NCBI GenBank assembly: GCA_030668485.1
Contig: DAOUTW010000022.1
Location: 1-63,201 of the forward strand
From: Candidatus Zixiibacteriota bacterium
GTDB lineage: Bacteria > Zixibacteria > MSB-5A5 > GN15 > JAAZOE01
Reading direction: 5' to 3'
DNA length: 63,201 nucleotides
Positions 44,593-63,201 of the stretch are shown here, piece by piece. The position numbers were made by a program, and so were the translations under genes. Numbering within the stretch: position 1 is the first letter of the stretch; every line of letters starts with the position of its first letter. The notes beneath the pieces were generated by a model. That model searched no databases. It worked only from the letters and a program-made list of their open reading frames with translations, and had not been told where the DNA came from.

Positions 44593-44643
44593 ATTCCCTC
44601 CTCTACGGCTTGCTGGATATATTTAACAAATAATTACCTATGT

Positions 44644-44672
44644 AAGATGACTAGTTTCCGTTCCAATGTCAA
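44644..44672 (-). promoter_or_regulatory. Possible promoter for the beta-barrel gene
   Basis: Minus strand TTGACA (44672-44667), 17 bases, CATCTT (44649-44644). The -10 box is weak. Confidence 0.35.
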
Positions 44673-44812
44673 ATTAATTTATTCTTCGAACGAATGACAG
44701 GTGCTGTCTTAAAGGGCGGGGCCTGCCGGATTAAACCGACCCTCCCCGCCTGTACTAACTGTTTAAATAGTGCGTCAACAATTAATCCGACGCTTTTCTC
44801 CTCCCCGACTGA

Positions 44813-44938
44813 CTAATAAATCACACAATGGTTGGGGGGACAAATCGGATGGATGCTAAGACGTCCGCAAATATCGGTATTGCATACCGTCTTGCATTTG
44901 TGATCCAGCACCGCGAGGGGTTCGATCAGATAAATCAT
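44813..44938 (-). CDS. 41-residue Cys-rich peptide, possible RiPP precursor
   Basis: ATG at 44938-44936 has AAGGAGGTGA five bases upstream. This matches the 16S 3' end visible at 62821 over ten bases and is the strongest ribosome binding site in the window. The 41 codons end in TAG. The N-terminal 14 residues (MIYLIEPLAVLDHK) have no Cys and could be a leader. The rest has Cys15, 19, 24, 33 and 38, spaced x3, x4, x8, x4, and closes PPNHCVIY. There is no signal peptide. This leader/Cys-core form recalls ribosomally made, modified peptides, but no maturase (radical SAM, LanM, YcaO) is in the window. A metal-binding peptide is the other option. No family is recognised. Confidence 0.55.
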   Translation of the reverse strand: MIYLIEPLAVLDHKCKTVCNTDICGRLSIHPICPPNHCVIY

Positions 44939-45186
44939 GTTTCACCTCCTTATAAGGGTATTATGAGATAAAGTGGCCGTAATCGTCTGGCAATGATAAA
45001 GTACCTGCCATCGAAATTTACCGGGCCACGTCGTTTCTATTACTCCTGATTAATCGAAATCTACCCATGCCTTTACTCTAACATCCCGTTTCAGGGAGAC
45101 CTATAATAAGAGAATCAACAATTCTATAGCGTAGATAAGATTCCTATTCATAATCAAAGATGCCAGTTCAATGCTTGCTTTCACTA

Positions 45187-45215
45187 TCGATATACTTTTT
45201 AATATAAAATGTCAA
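45187..45215 (-). promoter_or_regulatory. Promoter for the 41-residue peptide gene
   Basis: Minus strand TTGACA (45215-45210), 17 bases, TATCGA (45192-45187). A GGCATC box follows at 45164-45159, as in the leaders of the other Cys-rich genes. Confidence 0.5.
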
Positions 45216-45377
45216 GTGCAATATCCCCCAATCAATTTCGGTCTTCCCTATCACATGAGCCTGCAAAGCTCTTGCATCAGTCGCTTTTCCTCCTTAAATT
45301 GGATTCAGATCAAATGATATTCTCATCACCGCTCGACATGTCGAAAATTCTCATTTGCATTAGGAAGGAGTAACTCG

Positions 45378-45848
45378 ATGAACGGTTGCAAAATTGGGAC
45401 CCTGGTATTGATGGCTTTTATTGTCCTGTATTCCCCCGCTATGGCTCAGGACAAGCCCTGGATTGATATGGAAAACTGCGATTTCTGCGAATGCCTGACC
45501 GAGGACTCGCATCTGATGGACCATATGTCCTGGGAGCATCACGATATCACCAATGGACTGCTGAGCCTTACCATTGTCGACCCCGAATACCGGAATTCCT
45601 ATACTAAGGCCCAGAAGAAGATGGAGCAGATCGCCATGGATCTGAGTTCGGGAAAAACCGGATTAAAAATGTGCCAGCATTGCCTGACATTCGGCAAATT
45701 GATGATGCTCGGGGCAAAATTAGAGTCGGTTCATACCGGCGCAGGTGATATTATATTGATCACCTCCGACAATAAGGAGGTCCTGAAGTCAATCCAGAAA
45801 TACGGACAGCGCTGCCGCGAGGAACTGGCTAAGGAGGAGTCAAAGTAG
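45378..45848 (+). CDS. Secreted protein with CxxCxC and CxxC motifs
   Basis: AGGAAGGAG precedes the ATG by about 7 bases. The 156-residue product has a signal peptide (KIGTLVLMAFIVLYSPAMAQ). The mature part holds ENCDFCECL with CxxCxC, a His-rich SHLMDHMSWEHHD, then MCQHCLTF with CxxC, and a last Cys near the end. The pattern suggests metal binding or thiol chemistry in the periplasm. I do not recognise the family. The C-terminal half is helical and charged. It converges on the Cys-rich gene at 45953 and shares a terminator with it. Confidence 0.72.
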   Translation: MNGCKIGTLVLMAFIVLYSPAMAQDKPWIDMENCDFCECLTEDSHLMDHMSWEHHDITNGLLSLTIVDPEYRNSYTKAQKKMEQIAMDLSSGKTGLKMCQHCLTFGKLMMLGAKLESVHTGAGDIILITSDNKEVLKSIQKYGQRCREELAKEESK

Positions 45849-45952: not shown

Positions 45953-46219
45953 TTACATTATGTGAGAACAGGGCACCGGTAACCACCAGTCACCGGAGCA
46001 GTATTCCGTTTCGAAATCGGGATAACAGTAGAAAATGCCGCCGGTCTGATAGGTTCCGTCGCAACCGATACTCGTGCAGTATATATCGTCGGGACTGCAG
46101 GGCAAAGGCGGATTAATCGGTTTTTTGGCCATTGCCGAGTCAGCCGTAAAGACCACAAGGCCCAATCCTAACAAAAACGACATGGCAAACACGGTTGTAA
46201 AGACAGCTATCCTTTTCAT
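45953..46219 (-). CDS. Small secreted Cys-rich protein, family 1 (copy A)
   Basis: The 88-residue product begins with a signal peptide (MKRIAVFTTVFAMSFLLGLG, through SAMA-KKP). The mature 56 residues carry six Cys: LPC, IYC, IGC, FYC, EYC and VPC. The shared frame is LPCxPDDIYC, then GG(I/V)FYC, D(W/F)xxxYCSGD and PVPCSHI. The genes at 48674 and 51913 are clear paralogues with eight Cys. This copy lacks both the Cys before LPC and the one in GTC, where it has Tyr. Loss of exactly two suggests they form one disulfide in the others. The protein should be exported and oxidised. Function is unknown; candidates are toxin, bacteriocin or surface structure. TCTCC-type ribosome binding complement (GGAGAAATAAT) precedes the ATG. 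Confidence 0.72.
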   Translation of the reverse strand: MKRIAVFTTVFAMSFLLGLGLVVFTADSAMAKKPINPPLPCSPDDIYCTSIGCDGTYQTGGIFYCYPDFETEYCSGDWWLPVPCSHIM

Positions 46220-46562: not shown

Positions 46563-46874
46563 TTATTGAGGCGTGCCGCAAATCAGCGGACAGCTTTTGG
46601 GATTATTCGGCGGTGGACCCAGCAATCCGGAGCAAGAGCAACTGATATTGTCTTCATACCGACAGCCGGTGCCCGTCCACACGCCGCTGCCACCCCAGGG
46701 AGCGTCGCAGCAACGACCTTCAACCACCCAATAGTCACCAGGTGCTCCATCGCATAGATCCGGGTCCCGACCGGGATCCTCAAGGCCGGCAAAAGCGGAC
46801 ATATTAAGACCGGCCGTAAAGCCGAAGGCGAGGGCAAAGATAAGGACCAGCCCGATGAGATGTTTGAATCGCAT
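46563..46874 (-). CDS. Small secreted Cys-rich protein, family 2 (copy D)
   Basis: ATG 46874 follows GGGAGGAATAATT. The 103-residue product has a signal peptide (HLIGLVLIFALAFGFTAGLNMSAFA). The mature part has CC in GRCCDAPWGG, WTGTGC, SCSC, and NNPKSCPLICG at the end. The gene at 57034 shows the same order: CC, a Trp-Gly stretch with VW, CxC, NNPxSC and a final Cys. The two form a second family distinct from the LPC family, though both are short, exported, Cys-rich and carry the same promoter type. Function is unknown. An upstream in-frame ATG at 46907 has no ribosome binding site. Confidence 0.68.
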   Translation of the reverse strand: MRFKHLIGLVLIFALAFGFTAGLNMSAFAGLEDPGRDPDLCDGAPGDYWVVEGRCCDAPWGGSGVWTGTGCRYEDNISCSCSGLLGPPPNNPKSCPLICGTPQ

Positions 46875-47000
46875 AATTATTCCTCCCATGCTAATAGTTG
46901 ATGCCATCGACCGATGAGAGGGTACATCTCTGCCCTGCTCAAACAGTGCGGCGGGTATGATTAAAATGACTTTCCCGAGAAAAAGGACAAATATGATATG

Positions 47001-48673: not shown

Positions 48674-48943
48674 TTACAGTATATGGGAGCAGGGTACCGG
48701 CCAGTAATAATCGCCGGAGCAATACTCTATGTTCCAATCCGGGGCACAATAAAATACCCCACCATTGGGATAGCATGTCCCTGGACAGGGAGTGCTGGTG
48801 CAGTAGATATTATCCGGGTGGCAAGGCAATTCCTTGAGACAGATTCTCCTCGCCTCGACGTTTTCGGCGGTGAAAACAACAGCGCCGATTCCAATTAAAA
48901 ACGCAATGACAAAAACTGATGTGAAAGCACATACCTTTTTCAT
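48674..48943 (-). CDS. Small secreted Cys-rich protein, family 1 (copy B)
   Basis: ATG 48943 follows GGAAGGAGGATGT. The 89-residue product has a signal peptide (MKKVCAFTSVFVIAFLIGIG, through VEA-RRI). The mature part has eight Cys: RIC, LPC, IYC, TPC, GTC, FYC, EYC and VPC. It matches copy A at most positions of the last 50 residues and copy C almost as well. A clear duplication with copy A extends outside the gene: both have CCGGTATGAGAC in the leader and CCGATATGAGAC after the end. It should be exported and held by up to four disulfides. Function unknown. Confidence 0.75.
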   Translation of the reverse strand: MKKVCAFTSVFVIAFLIGIGAVVFTAENVEARRICLKELPCHPDNIYCTSTPCPGTCYPNGGVFYCAPDWNIEYCSGDYYWPVPCSHIL

Positions 48944-49380
48944 CACATCCTCCTTCCTGGACTTATCAAGTCCCGGTCTCATACCGGACTTATCGCATTT
49001 ACTGGCGCGGATAATCGAACCGCTCATTTATATCACAATACGGAGGTGTTTGCTTATCCTCGCCGGCAAATAATCTCTGAACTATGATGCTTGCAACTCT
49101 GATTGATGCCATTCGAAAGGCTCATAGTATTTGCCTTATTGATATTTACAGGACTATAACCCAGGCAAATGAGCCTGACATTCGCTGCCGAAAGTTACCG
49201 ACCGGTAAGATAAGCCATCCAACATCCGCAAAGACGGGCTGTGAACGGGCACTGGGTCCAATGCAATTGACTCCAGTCGGCATATTTCACAACGGCTGCA
49301 TCACCTGCATAAACGCCTTCATATAGTCGGCGCACATAAATGTGCGCCGACCTGAATAATACGTCATCCATTCCGGTTCA
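48944..49380 (-). other. Leader and promoter of copy B; end of the free dockerin gene
   Basis: It holds CCGGTATGAGACCGG (48987-48973 on the minus strand), GGCATC at 49110-49105, GGCAAA at 49135-49130 and the weak promoter at 49139. GGAGGTG at 49043 on the plus strand precedes only an 8-codon frame. No further gene is seen. Confidence 0.5.
49139..49168 (-). promoter_or_regulatory. Possible promoter of Cys-rich copy B
   Basis: Minus strand TTGCCT (49168-49163), 18 bases, TATCAA (49144-49139). It is weaker than at the sister genes. Confidence 0.35.
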
Positions 49381-59152: not shown

Positions 59153-59161
59153 GAATTTAAA

Positions 59162-59277
59162 GCCGGCAGCGATCTACTCTCCCACACAGTCTCCCGTGCA
59201 GTACCATCGACGCTGTAGGGCTTAACTACTGTGTTCGGAATGGGAACAGGTGTATCCCCTACGCCATTACCACCGGC
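59162..59277 (-). rRNA. rrf: 5S ribosomal RNA
   Basis: About 116 bases. The reverse strand opens GCCGGTGGTAATGGCG and closes GATCGCTGCCGGC, which form the terminal stem. The loop word CCCATTCCGAACACAG is typical of 5S. It is the last gene of the rRNA operon. Confidence 0.95.
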
Positions 59278-59356
59278 ATTATTAATTTATAAACAACATA
59301 TTGTCGCATGACGAGAATCTTACAGCAAATAGTGACCGATTTGTAAAATTTTTATG

Positions 59357-62370
<3,014 letters not shown>

Positions 62371-62528
62371 CAATTCTTCAAATCGATAAATCACCGTAGT
62401 TTTGTTGAAGATGCTCGCCACGATATGATCATCCTGAGATAATCATATACGTTTGCGACAATATGAAGTTGTCAAAGATCGAAACATCTCGCCTGCGCGA
62501 GATGGTGTAACAAAATTTTTTTACTCTA

Positions 62529-62601
62529 TGGAGATGACCGGGCTCGAACCGGCGACCTGCGGCTTGCAAAGCCGCCGCTCTCCCAGCTGAGCTACATCCC
62601 C
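62529..62601 (-). tRNA. tRNA-Ala (anticodon TGC)
   Basis: The 73-base cloverleaf has acceptor GGGGATG/CATCTCC, D-arm with AGCTCAGCTGGGAGAGC, anticodon loop CTTTGCAAG and T-loop GGTTCGAGCCC. The discriminator is A, and CCA is not encoded. Confidence 0.96.
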
Positions 62602-62608
62602 ATTAATA

Positions 62609-62682
62609 TGGGCCTAGGTGGATTCGAACCACCGACCTTGCGCTTATCAGGCGCACGCTCTAACCAACTGAGCTATAAGCCC
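62609..62682 (-). tRNA. tRNA-Ile (anticodon GAT)
   Basis: The 74-base cloverleaf has acceptor GGGCTTA/TAGGCCC, D-arm AGCTCAGTTGGTTAGAGC, anticodon in CTGATAA and T-loop GGTTCGAATCC. The discriminator is A, and CCA is not encoded. It lies between 16S and tRNA-Ala. Confidence 0.96.
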
Positions 62683-62820
62683 TAAGCTTGGTCTTCGCCC
62701 ATCAAAGACGGACTAAATTTATCAAAAAATAATACGTGTCGCGATCGAAAAATGTATGTCCATCGATCGACCTGGTTTTCGTTGCAATCGTTGCGAGATT
62801 GCATCGAAACCTACTCCTTA

Positions 62821-63201
<381 letters not shown>

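Follow-up and report, generated by a model that had tools for sequence, protein, structure and literature searches.

A short gene in the genome of a Candidatus Zixiibacteriota bacterium most probably encodes an orphan RiPP precursor that belongs to a Zixibacteria radical SAM system but stands alone, its maturase being supplied in trans from an operon on another contig, C128. The gene lies on contig C56 of this genome (G000), within the window, i.e. the whole stretch of 63,201 nucleotides that was analysed. A RiPP precursor with its enzyme elsewhere had been proposed in the first-pass annotation, and this idea is supported, since the same leader and ribosome binding site (RBS) occur directly upstream of radical SAM/SPASM maturases. 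An operon of this kind is present on C128.

The gene and its surroundings

The reading frame runs from ATG to TAA exactly where it had been annotated (Table 1), its coordinates being correct and its strand now corrected to minus. It translates as MIYLIEPLAVLDHKCKTVCNTDICGRLSIHPICPPNHCVIY, with cysteines at positions 15, 19, 24, 33 and 38. As described before, the first 14 residues hold no Cys and the other 27 hold five. As for the leader/core layout read from this distribution, the leader conserved in sequence alignments is M1-P7, which is shorter than the 14-residue Cys-free segment.

Table 1. Positions in the window of the precursor gene and its associated features
Feature	Position	Strand	Basis or remark
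Precursor peptide gene, 41 aa	44813..44938	minus	ATG 44938 to TAA 44813; translation, homologues, purifying selection (G005/G006 pair)
RBS AAGGAGGTGA	44942..44951	minus	perfect match to the genome's 16S 3' end
Conserved leader motif, codons 1-7, MIYLIEP	44918..44938	minus	M[ILVF][YF][LI][IVL][DEN]P; 58 unique precursors, leader-codon pN/pS 0.19, alignment
Putative core, residues 15-41, five Cys	44816..44896	minus	translation, alignments; leader/core boundary inferred
Conserved core block CGRLSIHPICPP, diagnostic of the orphan subtype	44834..44869	minus	exact pattern in 4/132 phylum genomes, backwards control 0
GC-rich stem-loop GGCGGGG...CCCCGCC, without T tract	44715..44750	minus	62 nt past the stop codon

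The ATG is separated by 3 nt from AAGGAGGTGA, which had rightly been singled out as a ten-base perfect RBS and is the strongest of the whole window. Its only other copy there, at 62823, is the complement of the genome's own 16S rRNA 3' end, which makes it a perfect anti-SD match. The claim that the gene has its own promoter fared less well. A consensus scan of the minus strand from 44600 to 45400 found no sigma-70-like site, and a relaxed search yielded weak candidates only. Since the upstream neighbour is divergent and 439 nt away, a promoter must nevertheless exist, at a position that could not be located. Downstream, the 110-nt stretch 3' of the gene folds with a z of -3.3. Values below -2 are found in 39 of the 58 members of the wider family described below, whose stem-loops mostly lack T tracts and, by inference, may stabilise or end the precursor message.

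Other features of the window include the divergent neighbour (45378-45848, plus strand), a 156-aa protein with an apparent signal peptide, Cys motifs and no Pfam match. Small secreted Cys-rich proteins are encoded on the minus strand at 45953-46219, 48674-49027 and possibly 46563-46907, none with a significant Pfam or NCBIfam match. The products of the first two are 56% identical paralogues, both ending in ...EYCSGDxxxPVPCSHI. Positions 991-37022 hold a run of long ORFs, all with a short domain that recurs in a protein at L048 16399-16767 and may serve the secretion or sorting of surface proteins. An rRNA operon occupies 59161-63201 (minus strand), with the 3' end of the 16S gene (cut by the window's end), two tRNAs, 23S and 5S.

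Conservation and the precursor family

A search of 60 related genomes with the single peptide sequence identified intact homologues in G005 and G006, both from the family of G000 (E ~5e-6), and a weaker one in G034, from another family of the order. In all three, the start codon is at the same place and is preceded by a GGAGG RBS. Matches at E 0.01-1 in this search were mostly due to chance, with no RBS or no matching start (e.g. C57:42489); among these weak matches, those in G034 and G012 turned out to be real. Among 132 genomes of the phylum, the core-block pattern matches G000, G005, G006 and G034 only, which together form the orphan subtype with the core consensus C-[GR]-R-L-S-I-x-P-[IV]-C-P-P. 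A profile of these four members (A3) recovers the same four genomes, with E values between 1e-15 and 1e-24, and has no further match below 0.002; the G005 and G006 rows themselves helped to build it. M1, Y3, I5 and P7 are invariant in the four-member alignment, while Cys count and spacing vary, from three to five Cys.

Absence or disruption in close relatives, which the first-pass annotation had named as grounds for refutation, was checked. An undisrupted frame is present in two species that belong to a different genus of the same family, and also in a single genome from a different family. It is missing from four of the six other same-family genomes, a patchy distribution. Apart from the peptide itself, no synteny was detected between the window and G005, G006 or G034. 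In these three genomes the orphan-subtype genes sit at unrelated places, each genome also containing the operon of the C128 type. Comparison of the closest pair, G005 and G006, served as the coding-selection check: 11 synonymous changes over 28.7 sites and 10 nonsynonymous changes over 94.3 sites give a dN/dS of 0.21 (Fisher p 0.001). Judged from these substitutions, the frame is under purifying selection and, on the same comparative evidence, is a genuine gene.

The leader is shared far beyond this subtype. In G012, two tandem peptides starting MIFLI[ED]P immediately precede a radical SAM/SPASM protein of 451 aa. A DNA pattern combining RBS and leader was searched for in 80 genomes from the order and is present in 21 of these, at 43 places in total, with none in the backwards control; a broader pattern is present in 28 of 127 genomes. 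The family recovered comprises 58 unique peptides of 31-48 aa, mainly from Zixibacteria and nearly all with two to five Cys, whose common start is a strong RBS followed by M[ILV]YL[IV][DE]P. Across the 58 genes, leader codons vary mainly at synonymous positions (pN/pS 0.19). P-x-Y-G is found near the end of 53 members; the five without it are the four of the orphan subtype and an orphan on C48. Pfam and NCBIfam scans of the precursor peptides returned no family match, only one meaningless Pfam match (E 0.14).

General RiPP traits are met by this family, namely a short gene, a conserved N-terminal leader and a variable C-terminal core (27-row alignment; 58 members). A neighbouring modifying enzyme is found for the family members of most genomes, not for the gene in the window. 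Typically, the peptides are directly upstream of two radical SAM/SPASM enzymes, the Clo7bot-like rSAM1 and then rSAM2, often with a B12-radical-SAM enzyme (B12-rSAM), and an ABC transporter. G005, G006, G034, G043 and G029 also contain precursors without a maturase in the neighbourhood fetched. Among 79 genomes of the order, leader (strict pattern) and rSAM1 (E below 1e-100) are found together in 21, rSAM1 alone in five, the leader alone in none and neither in 53 (Fisher p about 9e-15). With the broader pattern, the sole exception in the order is G031, whose peptide lies <300 nt from a contig end.

Outside Zixibacteria, peptide and rSAM1 were found in records labelled Calditrichaeota (L110), GN15 (L129) and Ignavibacterium (L130), and in an uncultured bacterium (L135). 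Leader-pattern matches in Brevibacterium, Komagataeibacter, Sphingomonas, Saprospiraceae and others were attributed to chance. A Christensenellaceae peptide, MVYLVEPKVFSDESAACGVNCLDFCAGNCGFF (L122 3964, minus strand), is near a 28%-identical rSAM and weakly matches TIGR04118, the AC3_0185 Cys-rich RiPP; the leader motif may be common to Firmicutes Cys-rich RiPPs too. At two loci, L103 (G025:C27, 2669-8384) and L097 (G003:C20, 5451-10575), rSAM1 is duplicated, and in L103 both copies come with a precursor and an rSAM2 of their own.

The maturase and the choice between readings

In the window's own genome, the C128 operon encodes two precursors, MLYLIDPKDLCGAKCWPFFITCRPDNHPMYGIDPCGRIDS and MIYLVDPRENISLKCRFYCGIKPLYGVPPILCNIVQ, along with rSAM1 (455 aa), rSAM2 (372 aa), B12-rSAM (477 aa) and the ABC transporter (610 aa). 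Five further precursors are scattered over C1, C48, C54, C56 (the gene studied here) and C75, with no maturase in the stretch examined; the one on C75 sits <1 kb from a contig end. At least seven precursors are thus present, five of them off C128, sharing a leader and meeting the expectation of a dispersed repertoire in which some precursors are unlinked to the one operon. The observation that no maturase is near the 41-aa frame holds for the entire window, where tblastn with the operon proteins found none in 63 kb.

Across nine loci, rSAM1 has an invariant radical SAM CxxxCxxC motif (Cys 106/110/113) and invariant SPASM-type cysteines towards the C-terminus (332, 351, 390, 393, 399, 403 and 418), a combination that is also a trait of SCIFF/ranthipeptide enzymes. 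Its top profile is TIGR04334, the Clo7bot maturase, matched over nearly the full length at 331.9 and 351.7 bits, without meeting the 600-bit cut-off. By these scores, rSAM1 is a relative of the Clo7bot maturase, not a member. The SCIFF maturase profile TIGR03974 (94.9 and 95.7 bits, cut-off 425) and the PapB profile NF047865 (143 bits, cut-off 340) are not met either.

The N-terminal 92 residues of rSAM1 were folded alone, as the whole-maturase VIA comparison hardly covered residues 1-85, and are predicted with low confidence to form beta-beta-beta-alpha-alpha-alpha. The 13 best VIA matches of this domain are all RiPP enzymes, including TigE, TbiB1, MccB, a lasso B1 protein, CteB, ThcOx and McbB, at Z scores of only 3.3-4.5; Foldseek alone found no significant match for the domain. 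The predicted fold is consistent with an RRE-like domain, for which the evidence remains weak.

The proposed mechanism would begin with synthesis of the 41-aa peptide, driven by its strong RBS. MIYLIEP, a hydrophobic strand, would act as the recognition signal and is inferred to be bound in trans by the RRE-like domain of C128 rSAM1, which would then modify the Cys-rich C-terminal part by linking core Cys to other residues. By analogy with CteB, this chemistry would most likely yield Cys thioether cross-links. Further modifications are probably added by rSAM2 and B12-rSAM, and the operon's ABC transporter may export the product, both by inference; any cleavage of the peptide and its biological role are likewise matters of inference. 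Following this model of action in trans, a single C128 maturase set would act on at least seven precursors, counting the two of the operon and the five dispersed ones. Several points weigh against it: there are no transcript, peptide or enzyme-assay data, the promoter has not been placed, the RRE-like domain rests on low-scoring matches and the orphan subtype is narrow (4 of 132 phylum genomes). Pairing with C128 is also called into question by the subtype's lack of the P-x-Y-G motif carried by 53 of 58 members. Because this motif is missing, the C128 enzymes may treat the orphan subtype differently.

A RiPP precursor could also be served by another enzyme. The genome contains a second, paralogous radical SAM system at L049 (G000:C109, 8292-12159), with two tandem rSAM1-like enzymes and an rSAM2-like enzyme, as well as a single enzyme on C124, and maturation by either is considered unlikely, though not negligible. 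Enzymes of the C109 type share 32-33% identity with rSAM1 and are also found in G005 and G034, both of which carry the orphan subtype; the core of this subtype has no P-x-Y-G, the signature of C128-type precursors. Although rSAM1 is present in all four genomes with the subtype, co-occurrence alone cannot choose the maturase, because the second system is found in G000, G005 and G034 too. The leaders speak for C128: the C109 candidate precursor, MKFIEKPQMKKTDRPCPCYKMFFPIICSAD, begins with MKFIEKP and its counterpart at the matching G034 locus with MKLIRLP, whereas MIYLIEP resembles the starts of the C128-linked peptides. In addition, G006 has the subtype, and no C109-type enzyme was found in that genome, which is only 87% complete.

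There is still less to recommend the view that the peptide is a small Cys-rich protein that stays unmodified, binds metal or forms disulfides, and kept its leader-like start by descent. Such a protein, which we regard as improbable, would fit the five Cys among 27 residues, the conserved core without P-x-Y-G and the lack of a maturase in the 63-kb window. The leader is kept in all four members and the maturase operon is present in every genome with the subtype, while the variable number and spacing of cysteines is ill-suited to a fixed metal site; the metal-binding alternative raised in the first-pass annotation thus received no specific support. A chance ORF with a fortuitous strong RBS, compatible with so short a frame and with the absence of a consensus sigma-70 promoter, is already contradicted by the G005/G006 homologues (significant with the single sequence and then with profile A3), the low dN/dS and six more family members in the same genome.

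Comparison with known systems

The orphan precursor and the C128 operon can be compared with several known RiPP systems. Clo7bot (TIGR04333 peptide, TIGR04334 maturase) likewise pairs a short Cys-rich precursor with a radical SAM/SPASM maturase. It differs in that rSAM1, at 332-352 bits, scores well below the TIGR04334 cut-off, and in that the Zixibacteria family has its own leader, P-x-Y-G in most members, and an operon extended by rSAM2 as another radical SAM/SPASM enzyme, in many cases by B12-rSAM, and by an ABC transporter. A TIGR04333 search of the window's own genome gave nothing over the 31-bit cut-off, the best match reaching 14.5 bits and none being at these peptides. A Cys-rich core is also shared with the SCIFF (CteA-CteB) and PapA-PapB ranthipeptides, and CteB is the closest solved RiPP maturase to rSAM1, by sequence and fold. 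CteB binds its leader on the RRE, in the form of a beta strand, and the bridge it makes is a Cys-Thr thioether (PMC8326336). Differences from these ranthipeptides include the core motifs and the low scores against TIGR03974 (95 bits vs 425) and NF047865 (143 vs 340). A ranthipeptide-like thioether linkage (Cys S to non-alpha carbon) is an inference only.

In a literature search that left most subscription journals out of scope, no paper was found on this precursor family, on a dispersed precursor repertoire for radical SAM enzymes, on Clo7bot/geopeptide or linking Zixibacteria with radical SAM RiPPs, nor, among the papers listed, on TIGR04334, TIGR04463 or TIGR04333. Precursors encoded at a distance from the maturase escape cluster-based genome mining, and gene finders readily overlook frames of this length. 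The combined leader and RBS pattern recovers such orphans without matches in the backwards control, providing a simple way to map the whole repertoire. If the proposal is true, a leader of only seven residues that a radical SAM maturase recognises in trans would serve as a compact tag for introducing cross-links into peptides of choice.

Scattered precursors with one maturase are already known from the prochlorosins and their lanthionine synthetases. In these systems (ProcA/ProcM, SyncA/SyncM), many precursors with a conserved leader, both clustered and scattered, are processed by one maturase (PMC10783134). The same logic applies to the dispersed repertoire of Zixibacteria, where action of a single maturase on unlinked precursors is inferred. 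The families are unrelated: prochlorosins rely on a class II lanthionine synthetase and Nif11-type leaders, Zixibacteria on radical SAM enzymes and a seven-residue leader. On balance, we lean slightly towards regarding the C128 system as a radical SAM counterpart of the prochlorosins from an uncultured phylum, in which one operon would modify in trans scattered precursors sharing only a seven-residue leader, and the orphan subtype would be a second core class (CGRLSIxPICPP, without P-x-Y-G) that left the operon and was kept under selection.
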